A stretch of 32,758 bases of DNA. Origin: Modestobacter caceresii. Its GTDB lineage: Bacteria > Actinomycetota > Actinomycetes > Mycobacteriales > Geodermatophilaceae. The notes below the pieces were generated by a model. It had not been told where the DNA came from, made no database searches, and saw only the letters and a program-made list of their open reading frames with translations. Position 1 is the first letter of the stretch. Every line of letters starts with the position of its first letter. Made by a program: the position numbers and the translations under genes. The stretch lies in assembly GCF_000761485.1 (NCBI RefSeq), contig NZ_JPMX01000018.1, positions 1 through 32,758 on the forward strand, read 5' to 3'. Of the stretch, positions 4,990-19,802 are shown piece by piece.

Positions 4990-5847
4990 ATGGAGCAGCG
5001 ACGCATCGGGAACCGGACCGTCAGCGCGGTGGGGCTGGGGGCGATGCCCCTGTCCACGAAGGACCCTCGCCCGTCACCGGACGAGGCCGCGGCCGTGGTC
5101 CACGCCGCGCTGGACGCCGGCGTCACGCTGATCGACACCGCCGACGCCTACGCCCACGACGAGGCAGAGTTCGGCCACAACGAGGAGCTGGTCGCCCGGG
5201 CGCTGGCGTCCTACGGCTCCCCGGGCGACGTGCTCGTGGCGACCAAGGGCGGGCACACCCGCCGCGGCGCCGAGTGGGAGCTGGACGGTTCGCCGGCCTA
5301 CCTGCGCCGGGCCTGCGAGGCCTCGCTGCGCCGGCTGGGCGTCGAGGCGATCGGGCTCTACCAGTTCCACCGGCCCGACCCGACGACGCCGTGGGAGGAG
5401 TCGATGGGTGCGCTCCGCGAGCTCGTGGACGACGGGCTGGTGCAGCTGGCCGGGATCTCCAACGCCGACGTCGACCAGATCGACGCGGCCCGGGCGATCG
5501 TCGGCGACGCGCTGGTCAGCGTGCAGAACCAGTTCTCCCCCGGCTGGCGGTCCTCGGCCGGGGAGCTCGCGCACTGCGCGCAGCACGGGCTGGCGTTCCT
5601 GCCGTGGAGCCCGTTCGGCGGGGTGTCGGCCGCCAAGTCGCTGGGCTCGACGGCCGCGGAGTTCGCCGCCGTCGCCGACGAGCTGGGCACCTCGGTGTAC
5701 CGGGTGACGCTGGCCTGGCACCTGGCCCAGGCCGACGTCGTCGTCCCCATCCCCGGCGCCTCCCGGACGGAGTCCATCACCGACTCCGCGGCCGCCGCCG
5801 CCCTGCACCTGGCCCCTGAACACCTGGCCCGCCTGAACGCCGCCTGA
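4990..5847 (+). CDS. Aldo/keto reductase
   Basis: NAD(P)H-dependent oxidoreductase with a TIM-barrel fold, probably cytosolic; the substrate is not predictable. The 285 residues fit the family. The catalytic tetrad is visible: D49 and Y54 in LIDTADAY, K86 in VATKGG, and H127 in YQFHRPD. Near the C-terminus, VVPIPGASR is the usual cofactor-binding segment. The start ATG at 4990 gives the standard N-terminus [20 protein letters not shown]. It is divergent from rarA, separated by 34 bp. Its stop codon lies inside the first unit of a 20-bp tandem repeat, and a 63-nt palindrome follows. It is absent at this place in the mycobacterial order I recall, so it is probably a lineage-specific insertion. 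Confidence 0.93.
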
Positions 5848-5885
5848 CCCTCCACCTCAGGTTGAGACCCTCCACCTCAGCTTGA
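5846..5885. repeat. Two-copy 20-bp tandem repeat after the aldo/keto reductase
   Basis: Units 5846-5865 and 5866-5885 (unit GACCCTCCACCTCAGGTTGA) differ at one position (g versus c, the sixteenth base). The first unit includes the last two bases of the reductase's stop codon. The second unit forms a small palindrome, CCTCA-GCT-TGAGG (5875-5887). Confidence 0.85.
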
Positions 5886-5891
5886 GGCCCT

Positions 5892-5954
5892 GTTGATCAT
5901 CGGCGTCTGGCTGCCGCACTCGGCGTGTCGACCAGCCAGATGCCGATGATCAAC
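5892..5954. repeat. 63-nt palindromic element E1, left of the DUF559 gene
   Basis: The arms 5892-5913 and 5933-5954 are 22-nt inverted repeats with one mismatch (5905/5941, a G·U pair if the plus strand is transcribed) around a 19-nt loop. The ends read GTTGATCATCGGC and GCCGATGATCAAC. When reverse-complemented it matches element E2 (6925-6987) at 51 of 63 positions, including the loop segment CGACACGCCG. It could also serve as a terminator for the upstream reductase, but there is no U-tract. Confidence 0.9.
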
Positions 5955-6059
5955 CCAAGGATCGGGTGTCGGCACGACGTCGTCCACAGCGCCTCGGCGC
6001 GTCCACAGATCGGCTTCGGCCGCTCCCGCGGCGGGCTGGCAGGCCAGACGGTGTGAGCC

Positions 6060-6929
6060 ATGGCGCCGCAGCTCTTCACTACAGCCACTGCACGATCCGC
6101 CGGTCTGACCCGGGCGGCGCTGCGTGGGTCGTCCTACGTCCGGTTGGCGCACGGGTTGGTGGTCCGCCTCGACGACGCCCTCGACGAGCGCGAACGTCTC
6201 GCGCTCCTGGCCACCGTGCTGCCGCCGGATGCCGCGTTCAGCCACCAGACGGCCGCTGCCCTCCTGGGGGCACAGCTCGCGCCGCCGCCCCACCCGCACG
6301 TCGCGTTGACCCCGCGCCGGGTGCTCCCCCAGCACGCCGGCCTGGTGGTCCACGGTCGACGCCTGGCGGCCGAGGACGTGGTCCTGGACCGGGGCCTCCG
6401 GGGCACCTCGGGAGCGCAGACGTTCCTCGACGTGGCTGCCGTGCTCCCACCGCAGGAGCTCGTCGCCGTGGGAGACGCCCTGCTCCGCGCCGGCCACCTC
6501 GACGCAGCCCGACTCGGGGCGCGGCTCGGCCGCGCCGACCGGGTGCGGGGCGTGGTGCGGGCACGAACCTGTGCACCGCTGTTGAGCCCGCTGGCCCAGT
6601 CCCGGCCGGAGAGCGTCATGCGCTACTGGCTGCTCGCCAGCGAGCTGCCCGATCCAGAACCCCAGGTGCCGGTGACCGATCGATGGGGCCGAGAGGTGGC
6701 CCACGGCGATCTCGGCTACCGCGAGTGGAAGCTGCTGTTGGAGTACGAGGGACGGCAGCACGCCGACACCGAGCAGTTCGGGCGAGACGTCGACCGGTAC
6801 TCGCTGATGGCCGCGGACGGCTGGCTGGTGCTCCGGTTCGCGCGGTCGCACCTGCTCCGGCCTCAGGTCGTCGTCGACCGGACCCGCCGCGCCCTGCTCA
6901 GCCGCGGCTGGCGCCCCCAGCCACGTTGA
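6060..6929 (+). CDS. AbiEi-like wHTH / DUF559 (Vsr-like nuclease fold) protein
   Basis: A 289-residue protein. The N-terminus (about 5-40, FTTATARSAGLTRAALRGSS...YVRLAHGLVV) resembles the winged-helix part of type IV AbiEi-like antitoxin proteins. A middle region (about 45-180) is seen in many actinobacterial paralogues. The C-terminus (about 184-283) is a DUF559 domain of the PD-(D/E)XK/Vsr-like type with E184 in RPES, D217 in HGDLGY, E228/E230 in LLEYEG, H234, and D243/R246 in GRDVDRYS. The family is highly multiplied in high-GC actinobacteria and its biological role is not established; DNA cleavage, repair, or toxin-antitoxin/phage defence are possibilities. No partner gene is adjacent. 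The gene is bracketed by palindromes E1 and E2, and its TGA lies within E2. The N-terminus is shorter than in typical relatives, which usually carry about 10-15 more residues before this point. Confidence 0.85.
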   Translation: MAPQLFTTATARSAGLTRAALRGSSYVRLAHGLVVRLDDALDERERLALLATVLPPDAAFSHQTAAALLGAQLAPPPHPHVALTPRRVLPQHAGLVVHGRRLAAEDVVLDRGLRGTSGAQTFLDVAAVLPPQELVAVGDALLRAGHLDAARLGARLGRADRVRGVVRARTCAPLLSPLAQSRPESVMRYWLLASELPDPEPQVPVTDRWGREVAHGDLGYREWKLLLEYEGRQHADTEQFGRDVDRYSLMAADGWLVLRFARSHLLRPQVVVDRTRRALLSRGWRPQPR

Positions 6930-6987
6930 TCATCGGCGAGTGGCTGCCCGACACGCCGGCACGGGCAGCCATTCGCCGATGATCAAC
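6925..6987. repeat. 63-nt palindromic element E2, right of the DUF559 gene
   Basis: The arms 6925-6950 and 6962-6987 are 26-nt inverted repeats with one mismatch (6940/6972, G·U in plus-strand RNA) and an 11-nt loop. It has the same GTTGATCATCGGC ends and the same length as E1 but the opposite loop orientation. It contains the stop codon of the DUF559 gene (6927-6929) and lies between two convergent genes, so it may also end transcription from both sides. It lies 16 nt from the aspS stop. Confidence 0.9.
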
Positions 6988-7002
6988 ACCAGGGCGGGGA
7001 GG

Positions 7003-8784
7003 TCAGGCCTGCTTCGTCGGGTCGGTCGGGCCGGGGGCACCGGGCTCGCCCGGGGCGGGGTCGGCGTCGGGCTCGACGTCGATGCCGGCCTCCTTGCGCT
7101 GGGCCGGGGTGATCGGCGTGGGTGCGCCGGTCAGCGGGTCGAAGCCGGCGCCGGTCTTCGGGAAGGCGATGACCTCACGGATCGAGTCGACGCCGGCCAG
7201 CAGCGCCACGGTGCGGTCCCAGCCGATGGCCGCGCCGGCGTGCGGCGGCGGCCCGTAGTCGAAGGCCTCCAGGAACCAGCCGAACTGCGCCCGGGCCTCC
7301 TCCTGGGTCATGCCCAGGGTCTGGAACACCCGCTCCTGCAGCGCGGCGTCGGCGATGCGGACCGAACCGCTCATCAGCTCGTTTCCGTTGCACACCAGGT
7401 CGTAGGCGTCGGACAGCGCCGCGCCCTTGTCCTCGGCGAACCGCTCCCGCCACTCCGGGGTGGGCGAGGTGAACGGGTGGTGCATGAACGTCCAGTCGCC
7501 GTCCTCGGTCTCCTCGAACATCGGGAAGTCGACGACGAACAGGAACGACCACGACCCGGGGGCGATGAGCTCGAGCCGCTTGGCGATCTCGTTGCGCGCG
7601 GCCCCGAGCAGCTCCTGGGCCCCGCGGCGGGGGCCGGCGGCGAAGAAGACGCAGTCCCCCGGCTTCGCGCCGACGGCCTCGACCAGGCCGGCCCGCTCGG
7701 ACTCGGAGATGTTCTTCGACACCGGGCCACCGAGGGTGCCGTCCTCGGCGATGGTCACGTAGGCCAGGCCCTTGTGCCCGCGCGAGCGCGCCCAGTCCTG
7801 CCAGGCGTCGAACGCGCGTCGCGGCTGCGACCCACCACCGGGCATCACGATCGCGCCGACGTAGGGCGCCTGGAACACCCGGAACGGGGTCTCGGCGAAG
7901 TAGCTGGTCAGCTCGGTCAGCTCGATGCCGAAACGGAGGTCCGGCTTGTCGGAGCCGAACCGGTCCATCGCCTCGCGGTAGGTCATCCGCGGGATCTCCG
8001 GCACGGTGTACGAGGCCAGCTCCTGCCACAACGCCCGGATGACGTCCTCGGCGATGGCGAGCACGTCGTCCCGGTCGACGAAGCTCATCTCGAAGTCCAG
8101 CTGGGTGAACTCCGGCTGCCGGTCGGCGCGGAAGTCCTCGTCCCGGAAGCAGCGGGCGATCTGGTAGTACCGCTCCAGGCCACCGATCATCAGCAGCTGC
8201 TTGAACAGCTGCGGCGACTGCGGCAGGGCGTACCAGTGGCCCGGCTGCAGCCGCACCGGGACGACGAAGTCCCGGGCGCCCTCGGGGGTGGAGCGGGTCA
8301 GCGACGGCGTCTCCACCTCGGTGAACCCGTGACCGGCCATCACGCCGCGGGCGATCCGGTTGACCTCGCTGCGCAGCCGCAGCACCGAGGCCGGTCCCTG
8401 GCGGCGCAGGTCCAGGTACCGGTGGGCGTACCGGACGTCGTCACCGGCGGCCTGCGCCGTCTCGATCGGGAACGGCAGCGGCGCGGACGCCGAGAGCACT
8501 TGCAGCGTGCTGGCGACGACCTCGATCTCCCCGGTGGGCAGGTCGGCGTTCTCGTTGCCGGCCGGACGCCGCTGGACGTCGCCGGTCACGAGCACGCAGT
8601 ACTCGTTGCGCAGCGCGTGCGCCTCCTCCTCGCGGACGACGACCTGGGCGTAGCCCGAGGCGTCGCGCAGGTCGAGGAAGACGACCCCGCCGTGGTCGCG
8701 CCGGCGGGCGACCCAGCCGGCGAGGGTGACCGTGGAACCGGCGTCGGTCGCGCGGAGCGTGCCGGCGTCGTGGGTGCGGAGCAA
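7003..8784 (-). CDS. aspS: Aspartyl-tRNA synthetase (bacterial type)
   Basis: Class IIb synthetase charging tRNA with aspartate. The 593 residues are the normal bacterial length, with an N-terminal OB-fold (1-105, [21 protein letters not shown]), catalytic motif 1 region (about 150-170), motif 2 [19 protein letters not shown] (212-230), the bacterial GAD insertion in the middle, and motif 3 with [13 protein letters not shown] near the C-terminus. The start is an unusual TTG at 8784. It gives the family's typical MLRTHDAG start, no in-frame ATG/GTG precedes it, and GAGAGAGG sits 7 nt upstream. Whether it also charges tRNA(Asn) cannot be decided by eye. It lies downstream of the hisS-aldo/keto reductase pair with a 69-nt gap. 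The C-terminus is Asp/Pro/Gly-rich. Confidence 0.98.
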
Positions 8785-8853
8785 GGTAGTGCCTCTCTCA
8801 GGGGGTGCGGAGTCTCAACAGAGGGTCTCAGCAGGTGCGGGACGGGATGGCGG

Positions 8854-9879
8854 TCACCAGCGGTCGTGCACGTGGGCGCGGATGCGCTCGTCGTACACGC
8901 GCTCGAGGTCGGCGAGCTGGCCGGCGCTGAGTGACGGCAGCGAGGCGGCGGCGACGTTGCCCAGCGCCTGCTGCACGTTGCGCGCGCCCGGGATGACGGT
9001 GGTGACACCGGGCTGGTCGATGACCCAGCGCAGCGCGAAGGCGGCGGTGGTGACGTCCGGGCCGGCGATCTCGGTGACCTCGCGGGCGGCGGCGACACCG
9101 ACCTCGAAGGGCACCCCGGCGAAGGTCTCGCCGACGTCGAAGGCCTCACCGTTGCGGTTGAAGTTCCGGTGGTCGTCGGCGGCGAAGGTGGTGTCGGTGG
9201 AGTACTTGCCCGACAGCAGGCCGCTGGCCAGCGGCACCCGGGCGAGGATGCCGACCTCGGCGCGCTGGGCGGCGGGCAGCAGCTGCTCCAGCGGCTTGCG
9301 CCGGAAGACGTTGAGGATCACCTGGATCGACTGCACGCCCGGGTGCTGCAGGGCGGTGAGGCCCTCGGCGACGGTCTCGACCGAGACGCCGTAGGCCGCG
9401 ATCGCCTGCTCCTCGACCAGCGCGTCGAGGGTCTCGTAGACCCGCTCGTCGGAGTAGACGGCCGGGGGCGGGCAGTGCAGCTGCACCAGGTCCAGGGTGT
9501 CGACGCCGAGGTTGCGCCGGCTCCGGTCGATCCAGGCCCGCAGGTTCTCCGGGGTGTAGGTCTCGGCGGCGAACGGGTCGGCGCGACGGCCGGCCTTGGT
9601 GGCCACGAAGGGGCGCTCGCCGCGGGCGGCCAGCGCCTTGCGGATGCGCTCCTCGGAGCGGCCGTCGCCGTAGACGTCGGCGGTGTCCAGCAGGGTGACG
9701 CCGGCGTCCAGCGCAGCGTCGAGGACCGCGGCGGCGTCGTCCTCGGACACGTTCCCCCAGTCACCGCCCAGCTGCCAGGTGCCGAGGCCGACGACGGAGA
9801 CGTCGGCGCCGGTCCGGCCCAGGGGGCGGGTCTCGAGCGGGGTGTTGGCGGACTCGGCGATGCCGTCGGTGACTGTCAC
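8854..9879 (-). CDS. Aldo/keto reductase, coupled to hisS
   Basis: A 341-residue aldo/keto reductase of the YhdN/Gcy-like type. The tetrad is D65 and Y70 in [10 protein letters not shown]95 in VATKAG and H135 in [16 protein letters not shown] near residue 305 is the cofactor-binding end. The substrate is unknown. The GTG start (9879) overlaps the hisS stop as GTGA, so translation is probably coupled to histidyl-tRNA synthetase, although no metabolic link is evident. It shares the fold and tetrad with the reductase at 4990-5847 but differs in length and surrounding sequence, so the two do not look like a recent duplication. Confidence 0.94.
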
Positions 9880-18135: not shown

Positions 18136-19802
18136 CGGTTGCTCCCGTTCGTGCTGCTGCCGGTGGCGGCGCCGACCAGCTCGCGGTCGCCCAGCGGCGG
18201 CCCGGCGGGGCGCCGGCTGTGGTCGACCTGGCCGAGCCCGGAGAAACGGTTGCTCCCGAAGCCCTTGACCCGGCTGAGCACCGCCATGAGCGGATGGGTG
18301 AAGAGGAAGACGACGATCAGGTCGAGCACCGTGGACAGGCCGAGGGTGAACGCGAAGCCCTTCACGTCGCCGATGGCCAGCCAGTAGAGGATGGCGGCGG
18401 CGAGGAAGCTAACCGCATCGGCGGACAGGATCGTCCGGCGGGCCCGCACCCAGGCACGTGGCGTGGCACTGCGCAGGCTGCGCCCCTCGCGCACCTCGTC
18501 CTTGAGCCGTTCGAAGTAGACGACGAACGAGTCGGCGGTGATGCCGATGGACACGATGAACCCGGCGATCCCGGCGAGGCTCAGCGCCAAGCCGATCTCC
18601 CGGCTGAGCAGCACCAGACAGGCGTAGATCACGACGGCCGACAGCACCAGGCTGGCGATCATGACCAGGCCGAGCAGTCGGTAGTAGAGCAGCGCGTAGA
18701 CGAACACCAGCGCGACGCCGATCGCACCGGCGATGAGCCCGGCCCGCAGTTGCTCGCTGCCCAGCTCGGTGGTGATGGACTGCGCCGTCGCCTCGCTGAA
18801 CGTCAGCGGCAGGGCGCCGTACCGCAGCTGGTTGGCCAGCTCGGTGGCGGCCGCCTGGTCGAAGCTGCCGGTGATCTGGGTGGTGCCCCCGGCGATGGCC
18901 GAGTTGATCGTCGGCGCCGAGACGACCCGTCCGTCCAGCGTGATCGCCACGTTGTTGCCGACGTTGGCGGTCGTGTACTCCGCCCACGCGGCGGAGCCCG
19001 CCGACGTGAAGTCCAGGTTGACGACCCACTCGCCGGTGGCGACGTCGGTGCCGGACGTGGCGTCTGCGACGTCGGTGCCCTCGATGACGGCCGGCCCGAG
19101 CAGGAACTTCGCGGCCCCGTCGTCGGAACAGGCAGCGATGAAGGAGTCGGGCTGGTCGACCTCGGTGGTCGTGGTGTCGCAGGTGAGCGTCGCGTACTCG
19201 GCGACCGCCTCCTCCTGGGTGACGGCCGGTGCGTCCGGGTCGGCGACGGCCGGCTCTGTGGCGGCGGGGTCCGTGGCGGCCGGGTCGGCCGCCGGGTCCG
19301 TCGCCGCCGGGTCGGTCGCCTCGGGGTCAGTCGCCGGGTCCGTCGCCGCCGGGTCGGTGGCCGCCGGGTCCGTGGCCGCCGGGTCGGTCGCCTCCGGGTC
19401 GGTCGCCTCCGGGTCGGCCGCGGCTGCCGGCTCCGGACCGCCGAGGACCGGCCGGAAGCGCAGCTGCGCGGTGGCGCCCAGCTCGCGGGCCCGCTCGCCG
19501 TCGTCGCCCGGCACCGAGATGACGATGTTGCTGTCGCCCTCGGTGACGACCTCGGCCTCGGCCACGCCCAGGCCGTTGACCCGCTGCTCGATGATCTGGC
19601 GGGCGAGCTCGAGGTCCTCCTGGTCCGGGGCCTGGCCGTCCGGCGTGCGGGCGGCGAGGGTCACCGTCGTCCCGCCCTGCAGGTCGAGTCCGAGCTGGGG
19701 GGTGCGCTGGTCGCCGGTCAGGAAGACCAGGGCGTACAGCCCCGCGACGATCGCGAGGAACGCCGCGAAGTAGCGGCGGGCGGGGAGCTGGCGGGCGGCC
19801 AT
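18132..19802 (-). CDS. secD: Protein translocase subunit SecD
   Basis: RND-type membrane protein of the SecDF-YajC complex. The 556 residues hold an N-terminal helix (about 10-28), the signature LGLDLQGGTTVTLAAR (38-52), the large periplasmic P1 domain up to about 350, and five more helices (from about 354) with VSIGITADSFVVYFERLKDE. P1 is interrupted by a low-complexity stretch (about 124-190) of DPAAT/DPEAT units between LRFRPVLGG and VTQEEAV, coded by the repeat at 19236-19415. A Pro/Ala-rich linker is common at this place in actinobacterial SecD, but the near-perfect periodicity is notable. Its ATG start is 13 nt after yajC and its stop overlaps secF (ATGA). Confidence 0.96.
   Translation of the reverse strand: MAARQLPARRYFAAFLAIVAGLYALVFLTGDQRTPQLGLDLQGGTTVTLAARTPDGQAPDQEDLELARQIIEQRVNGLGVAEAEVVTEGDSNIVISVPGDDGERARELGATAQLRFRPVLGGPEPAAAADPEATDPEATDPAATDPAATDPAATDPATDPEATDPAATDPAADPAATDPAATEPAVADPDAPAVTQEEAVAEYATLTCDTTTTEVDQPDSFIAACSDDGAAKFLLGPAVIEGTDVADATSGTDVATGEWVVNLDFTSAGSAAWAEYTTANVGNNVAITLDGRVVSAPTINSAIAGGTTQITGSFDQAAATELANQLRYGALPLTFSEATAQSITTELGSEQLRAGLIAGAIGVALVFVYALLYYRLLGLVMIASLVLSAVVIYACLVLLSREIGLALSLAGIAGFIVSIGITADSFVVYFERLKDEVREGRSLRSATPRAWVRARRTILSADAVSFLAAAILYWLAIGDVKGFAFTLGLSTVLDLIVVFLFTHPLMAVLSRVKGFGSNRFSGLGQVDHSRRPAGPPLGDRELVGAATGSSTNGSNR
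19236..19415. repeat. 15-bp-period tandem repeat coding DPAAT/DPEAT units in secD
   Basis: About 12 imperfect pentapeptide units (DPEAT, DPAAT, and shortened DPAT/DPAA variants) cover residues about 130-189 of SecD. The DNA units are built from GTCGGT/GTCCGT-type blocks with GCCGCC or GCCTCC, so copy number could change by slippage without shifting the frame. Confidence 0.85.

Follow-up and report, generated by a model that had tools for sequence, protein, structure and literature searches.

Related systems and how this locus compares

In REP/RAYT systems, as described in PMC2817692, the rayt gene is flanked by two REPs, gene and palindromes coevolve, the gene evolves faster than its neighbours, and REP abundance correlates with rayt; the same account puts REP copies usually above 100 per genome. 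Each REP is characterized in PMC3733652 as a palindrome of 20 to 40 bp with a GTAG or CGTC tag. We analysed a 32,758-nucleotide stretch of the Modestobacter caceresii genome (the window; contig NZ_JPMX01000018.1) in which an AbiEi-like/DUF559 gene lies beside aspS. Like rayt, this gene and its counterparts are flanked by their own palindromes, coevolve with them and diverge faster than their neighbours, and palindrome abundance correlates with the resident gene for both palindrome types that we followed (A, that of the window, and B), with exceptions and with phylogeny ignored. Unlike RAYT, a Y1 HUH transposase (TnpA-REP; IS200/IS605-related), the enzyme here is an AbiEi-like/DUF559 protein; the palindromes are 63 to 73 nt long, with other ends and no 20 to 40 bp GTAG/CGTC-tag form; copies are fewer (about 12 places in the M. 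caceresii genome); and the type-B pair is direct, whereas RAYT genes are flanked by an inverted pair. Because enzyme, palindrome length, copy number and type-B orientation differ, the AbiEi-like/DUF559 system is not a member of RAYT/REP, although its way of working appears similar. A RAYT origin was rejected, as the Y1 transposase (PF01797) was found in none of 24 genomes with A or B systems; control genomes were positive in 5 of 14 cases.

Other described systems share single features with this one. AbiEi binds inverted repeats, according to PMC3985639. The N-terminal region here matches AbiEi models, as in the AbiE type IV toxin-antitoxin system; unlike AbiE, the protein has a fused nuclease domain and palindromes lie on both sides of its gene and dispersed, and no AbiEii toxin gene adjoins the DUF559 gene in the window, where its neighbours encode an aldo/keto reductase (AKR) and AspS. 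Caulobacter VsrA carries a DUF559 domain, described as common in Vsr-like endonucleases; it causes a DNA-damage response in Caulobacter cells without a methyltransferase, and a role in mismatch repair, as an endonuclease tied to a cytosine methyltransferase, is discussed for it (PMC12907096). The DUF559 domain is common to VsrA and our protein, but palindromes go unmentioned in the VsrA paper (PMC12907096). Titles and abstract beginnings of the DUF559 literature, with bioRxiv and most subscription journals outside the set, hold no link between DUF559 and palindromes (one mentions CRISPR).

As in MITEs and insertion sequences with terminal inverted repeats, short units here bound one gene and gene-less copies occur elsewhere; unlike in MITEs, each unit forms a full palindrome by itself. 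Two further differences, the direct orientation of the type-B pair and the failure to see any target-site duplication, leave the MITE-like variant offered by an earlier, sequence-only reading of this DNA less supported. TRIT, the repeated mycobacterial terminators, are repeated palindromes at gene 3′ ends, for which we know of no partner gene; the palindromes described here are likewise repeated at gene 3′ ends but have a candidate partner. EDxHD homing endonucleases have a Vsr-like fold. These enzymes, named in PMC6083498, resemble our system in the swapping of alleles at a fixed site; they differ in that no intron or intein is involved here, palindromes are dispersed, and no target site could be shown (neither a target motif nor a target-site duplication of the palindromes was found).

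The palindrome pair and the gene that it encloses

The locus comprises the following features of the window.

4990..5847, + strand: aldo/keto reductase (AKR) gene, locus anchor (Pfam)
5892..5954, no strand assigned: E1, type-A palindrome of 63 nt upstream of the DUF559 gene; the AKR stop codon lies 44 nt before it
5921..5930, + strand: asymmetric loop segment of E1, CGGCGTGTCG, orientation mark of the element
6060..6929, + strand: AbiEi-like/DUF559 protein gene, 289 aa, predicted nuclease partner of the palindromes
6072..6488, + strand: AbiEi-like N-terminal region, residues 5-143 (PADLOC model PDLC02249, E 1.9e-12)
6720..6860, + strand: DUF559 domain, residues 221-267 (profile match)
6925..6987, no strand assigned: E2, type-A palindrome of 63 nt downstream of the DUF559 gene, loop inverted relative to E1
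6927..6929, + strand: stop codon TGA of the DUF559 gene, positions 3-5 of E2
6949..6958, + strand: loop segment of E2, CGACACGCCG, reverse complement of the E1 loop segment
7003..8784, - strand: aspS, locus anchor (profile match)

The sequence-only reading had placed E1 and E2 at these coordinates, given both a length of 63 nt and common ends (GTTGATCATCGGC and GCCGATGATCAAC), and matched them at 51 of 63 positions as an inverted pair; all of this was borne out on recheck (81% identity; also found as 64-nt arms), as was the enclosure of a single gene, 6060-6929. Its start codon lies 105 nt downstream of E1, and E2 sits between the converging DUF559 and aspS genes. Both elements fold strongly as DNA (E1, -28.4 kcal/mol, z -8.9; E2, -32.8 kcal/mol, z -11.0), with 0 of 200 shuffles reaching the same value. 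Exact copies of the 13-nt end motif number four in the whole window, every one within E1 or E2; matches with up to two mismatches number 11, against 0.4 expected. No target-site duplication was seen by eye at 10 copies in this genome with 14-nt flanks shown, in keeping with its reported absence, and no Rfam family matched the window at the gathering threshold. A strand-specific RNA is unsupported, for the arms contain G.T and A.C mismatches in similar numbers (23/20 and 16/12) and so show no preference for either strand.

Elsewhere in the window, 5079-5198 and 9623-9742 share a 120-nt inverted similarity (75%) that links the predicted genes 4990-5847 and 8854-9879, the latter resembling a paralog of the aldo/keto reductase gene. 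Within another predicted gene, at 19235-19435, related repeats (CCGGGTCGGTCGCC...) occur in a run with spacings of 15 and 27 nt.

The encoded protein passes the curated cut-off for DUF559 (PF04480; 22.4 bits against 20.6), and all 28 aligned proteins match both the DUF559 profile (E up to 1) and PADLOC AbiEi models (E up to 1; best 1e-16). This alignment (A3) excludes one sequence with an internal stop (L167). Residues D217, E228, E230, H234, D243, D245 and R246 are invariant in all 28; we take them to be catalytic by their likeness to those of Vsr-like nucleases. Since these nuclease-type residues are invariant, the predicted nuclease activity of AbiEi-like/DUF559 proteins is probably kept. 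A search for a solved structural relative turned up 3hrl alone (E 1.1), which we set aside.

Alleles of the locus in relatives

The sequence-only reading had taken this place to be unoccupied in the mycobacterial gene order. In relatives of M. caceresii it is not empty: a DUF559 match lies near aspS in 55 of 80 fetched aspS loci, some of which end at contig edges. By AspS (98%), the window stands closest, among named strains, to Modestobacter VKM Ac-2977, 2982, 2984 and 2985, yet VKM Ac-2977, with AspS 98% and AKR 97% identical to the window, has a DUF559 protein only 55.5% identical. Where DUF559 identity to the window is at least about 70%, the palindromes are mostly type A; loci of lower identity carry others, namely type B (GAGTGAGCAGTTG...) and the GTTGATCATGGGCGTC, GATCATCGAGTTGTTGCC and GTTGATCATCGTCTGCGTGCACG types, with versions of 73 nt in Klenkia and Goekera. 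Types differ in their ends (GTTGATC, GAGTGAG and others) and range from 63 to 73 nt, and many have in common a loop core containing GACACG.

Flank hairpins score above 11.2, the 95th percentile of shuffled flanks (mean 8.6, sd 2.0, maximum 17.8), on both sides in 40 of the 55 loci, on one side in 14 and on neither in one; 84 of 110 flanks score at least 14, and in a few flanks, such as that upstream of L083, the best hairpin picked is non-cognate. By best model strand, recounted by eye, the pair is inverted at all 15 type-A loci and direct at all 12 type-B loci. Examples are L040, L046 and the window for inverted type-A pairs and L041, L116 and L039 for direct type-B pairs. In four genomes a DUF559-free locus retains one palindrome between aspS and AKR (L058, L108, L112, L097). 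One allele (L180, G060:C7) looks mosaic, its N-terminal part nearer type B and its C-terminal part nearer type A; its palindromes are type B upstream and type A downstream.

Bracketing of DUF559 genes compared with control genes

We aligned the upstream with the downstream flank of DUF559 genes and of control genes, with a cut-off score of at least 20. At the aspS locus, across genera, flank homology at this level was found for 45 of 48 complete DUF559 alleles; it was also found for 14 of 15 DUF559 genes of other Mycobacteriales families and 3 of 5 other DUF559 genes of the M. caceresii genome, against 17 of 666 control genes. Of these 17 high controls, eight were inspected: five are PPIase-like genes that are duplicated and whose coding ends are alike, another is hisS, which has repeats upstream, and the remaining two (L101, L091) represent an aminotransferase-like gene that adjoins the DUF559 cassette and lies between extra palindromes. 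A stricter test restricted to palindromes left at least 20 in 8 of 15 outside-family DUF559 genes, 2 of 5 paralogs of the same genome (a third, L123, scored 19) and 1 of 233 controls; that lone control overlaps the DUF559 gene of its own locus, L083, and the next scored 13.5. The association between palindromes and DUF559 anticipated by the sequence-only reading therefore holds at the locus and outside the family, and statistically in trans as described below.

The palindrome sequence varies from one DUF559 gene to another. In the M. caceresii genome, the DUF559 gene L121 (C8:40571-41606) lies between two near-identical 54-nt palindromes (GAGTGACAGC...), of which five unlinked copies exist in the same genome, and the gene's TGA is inside the downstream palindrome. 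Candidate palindrome pairs also accompany the DUF559 genes L120, L122 and, weakly, L123 (C6, C17 and C127); comparison of the flanks of a further paralog, L119, gave no palindrome pair. The aminotransferase-like gene between palindromes occupies 7822-8928 in L091 and 7906-8997 in L101; a candidate counterpart in L089 is at 7921-9009.

Palindrome arms covary with the protein

Across 37 loci, window included (out of 56; 8 were dropped for a weak palindrome and 11 because the DUF559 or AspS match was incomplete), palindrome-arm distance correlates with DUF559 protein distance (r 0.73) but not with AspS distance (r 0.09). The partial Mantel correlation between protein and arms is 0.73, with 0 of 2,000 permutations as high, and thinning to 25 loci gives 0.64 for the protein, -0.04 for AspS and a partial value of 0.65 (0/2000). 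In these comparisons, the palindrome arms follow the protein rather than the species. The distance between the upstream and downstream arms of one locus averages 0.24, compared with 0.46 to other loci. The downstream palindrome of the same locus is the closest match of the upstream one in 14 of 37 loci and among the top three in 27; that it ranks first in only 14 is the outcome expected where related alleles have their palindrome type in common.

Linkage on the chromosome could account for part of this covariation in cis. That it is the whole cause is unlikely, since the N-terminal part of the protein is a better predictor of the far palindrome than the C-terminal part beside it: for the downstream palindrome, residues 1-100, which are far from it, give r 0.62 (partial 0.49, 0/1000) and the adjacent residues 191-289 give r 0.45 (partial 0.11, 38/1000). 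For the upstream palindrome, partial correlations are 0.58 (0/1000) for residues 1-100 and 0.23 (0/1000) for residues 191-289, and against whole arms the C-terminal part retains a small independent correlation (0.15, 10/1000). Divergence of residues 1-100 is thus the best tracker of the arms, and since these residues predict even the far palindrome better, the AbiEi-like region is likely the main reader of the arms.

A dispersed family that tends to match the resident allele

Twelve places in the M. caceresii genome match the 63-nt palindrome, E1 and E2 included, so the pair, though real, is not unique; nine match at E 2e-6 or better, and the three weaker ones (E 0.01 to 0.04) have good scores as full elements. 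Palindrome matches occur in 9 of 20 genomes, this one included, in G013 by a 26-nt piece alone, and a covariance model built from 24 type-A sequences (R1) matches 39 of 56 genomes of the family (E 1e-4). Nearly all copies are 63 nt long with constant outer arms and loop and a variable, partly compensating mid-arm. Cells changed on both sides number 29, a count that 0 of 500 shuffles equalled; the number of pairs changed on both sides is not above shuffles (371/500), and columns 16/49 are unpaired in 12 of 24 sequences.

Genomes were typed as carriers by protein scores against A and B queries, with cut-offs chosen after the tables were viewed, and matches were counted on both strands, giving roughly twice the number of places. 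With phylogeny ignored, type-A matches have a median of 26.5 in 8 A-carriers against 4 in 38 others (p 1.8e-4), and type-B matches a median of 17 in 15 B-carriers against 2 in 35 others (p 1.2e-6). Each set of carriers comes from several genera. Removing four flank matches per carrier leaves p 6e-4 (A) and 6e-6 (B), and the crossed controls gave p 0.99 and 0.81. R1 counts cover 46 of 56 genomes; the ten omitted (G024, G027, G029, G035, G037, G043, G044, G049, G050, G070) comprise six without an R1 match and four with 8 to 25. Further, no R1 count exists for G008; G028, at 68% identity, was scored as a non-carrier of A, and G067 was scored as a non-carrier of B despite two type-B matches 1 kb apart.

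A-carriers hold 10 to 66 strand-matches, or about 5 to 33 places. Among non-carriers, 11 of 38 have no match to the type-A model, but G060 has 40, G038 26, G067 25 and G062 20; conversely, some A-carriers hold type-B matches (G058, 31; G005, 14; G008, 13). We tentatively read such off-type matches as leftovers of past alleles or as cross-matching of the models. At sub-type level, single dispersed copies resemble the resident flanks in G058, G069, G028 and G034 and are unlike them in G042, G046 and G001; in the latter three, the type-A model had chosen the examples. Judged by these counts and examples, the type of the unlinked copies tends to be that of the resident allele, though not in every genome.

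Unlinked copies at gene ends

The examined loci contain 43 distinct type-A copies, 6 of them in cassette pairs and 37 unlinked. Of the unlinked copies, 24 lie in convergent spacers, 11 in tandem and 2 in divergent ones. Among other spacers about 15 of 103 are convergent, an approximate background obtained by subtraction, and the enrichment gives a Fisher p of 2e-8. Of the 35 unlinked copies that face a gene end, 34 lie no more than 30 nt from the stop codon, and 18 include the gene's TGA, with the same 5-nt overlap as at E2; gene calls came from a simple caller trained on the window, and details of placement may shift. The sequence-only reading had weighed copies scattered after unrelated genes against its own proposal. 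Such copies do exist; as they coincide with the DUF559 association, the partnership reading is not refuted.

This placement is an argument that the palindromes are bidirectional host terminators with built-in stops, spread by ordinary recombination, with the DUF559 gene merely resident between two of them; the balanced G.T and A.C mismatches of the arms, which favour neither strand, point the same way. However, a simple consensus scan of 5000-9000 called no hairpin with a U tract at E1 or E2, and the terminator explanation accounts neither for a palindrome sequence of its own on both sides of nearly every DUF559 gene examined nor for the tendency of unlinked copies to follow the resident allele. 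We consider it unlikely as a full account, although termination may be what the host gains from the palindromes.

The palindromes might instead be operators, the AbiEi-like region autoregulating its gene via the upstream copy and the unlinked copies serving as further regulatory sites. AbiEi is described as autoregulating via inverted repeats in its promoter (PMC3985639), E1 lies upstream of the start codon, and N-terminal distance tracks the arms. Yet a homologous copy also lies downstream in nearly every allele examined, unlinked copies are at 3′ ends and seldom between divergent genes (2 of 37), and a plain repressor would have no need of invariant nuclease-type residues, making this reading quite improbable.

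Unlinked copies differ between strains at sites whose flanks can be aligned. Presence and absence of a copy is demonstrated at one site (L126), where the element is present in M. caceresii, G025, G005 and G001 and is missing, with other sequence instead, in G010, G068 and G003. In G059 and G008 a type-A-like palindrome follows the same gene with extra sequence beyond, and in G009, G036, G007 and G004 the place is taken by different sequence or hairpins. At a second site (L125; 6 of 11 matching genomes compared), the palindrome is type A in M. caceresii, type B in G025, G036, G001, G005 and G009 and of a third kind in G010; the whole spacer differs between strains, and replacement and fresh insertion are therefore indistinguishable there. 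The rel/PPIase-like spacer, compared in 63 loci, holds type-A palindromes in L052, L069, L089 and L104, whereas several further loci have hairpins of other kinds. From L039 to L118, the hairpins of this convergent spacer vary by locus, and some belong to families linked to no protein in this analysis, such as CCCCGCTTTTCCGCGG in L067 and L093.

A proposed two-part system

We favour, with reasonable though not high confidence, a two-part system working like REP/RAYT, made up of a nuclease gene and its cognate palindromes, flanking and dispersed. The first part would be an AbiEi-like/DUF559 (Vsr-like) nuclease gene between two copies of its cognate palindrome, and the second the unlinked copies of that palindrome, nearly all at gene 3′ ends. 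Comparative sequence analysis documents the bracketing, the pairing in cis, the statistical pairing in trans, the strain differences and the 3′-end placement, and the sequence-only proposal of a REP/RAYT-like arrangement with a nuclease-fold protein as partner of the palindromes is supported. That the nuclease itself binds, cuts or spreads the palindromes we infer. The N-terminal AbiEi-like region would bind the palindrome arms, and the nuclease domain would nick or cut at the palindrome or at target sites, by which the palindrome would be copied or replaced elsewhere. Copies would persist at gene ends, notably between convergent genes, where a TGA-bearing hairpin does no harm or is of use.

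A selfish homing-type cassette, whose nuclease cuts alleles or sites lacking it so that recombination copies cassette and palindromes and whose lost copies leave the dispersed palindromes as remnants, would fit the swapping of alleles between near-identical flanks (as in VKM Ac-2977), the gene-less solo palindromes at four loci and the mosaic-looking allele of G060, but is very unlikely given unlinked palindromes at many unrelated sites beside ordinary genes and because palindromes left behind by a lost gene should show no preference for stop codons.

The two-part reading can be carried further, more tentatively and with less than even confidence. AbiEi-DUF559 proteins might be a second class of palindrome-spreading enzymes, independent of the HUH transposases, with each protein reading its own arms through the AbiEi-like region while the nuclease domain copies or swaps the palindrome at gene ends; several such systems would coexist in an actinobacterial genome, and gene-end hairpins would be rewritten upon allele exchange.

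Pfam lists DUF559 as being of unknown function, and for one large group of these proteins the palindrome adjoining their own gene is now a candidate substrate. As nature supplies many alleles, each with its matching palindrome, the recognition code can be tested directly. Our findings suggest that the pairing of a resident enzyme with its own dispersed palindromes, as in REP/RAYT, evolved a second time around an unrelated nuclease; they also offer a possible origin for some of the gene-end hairpins in Actinobacteria.
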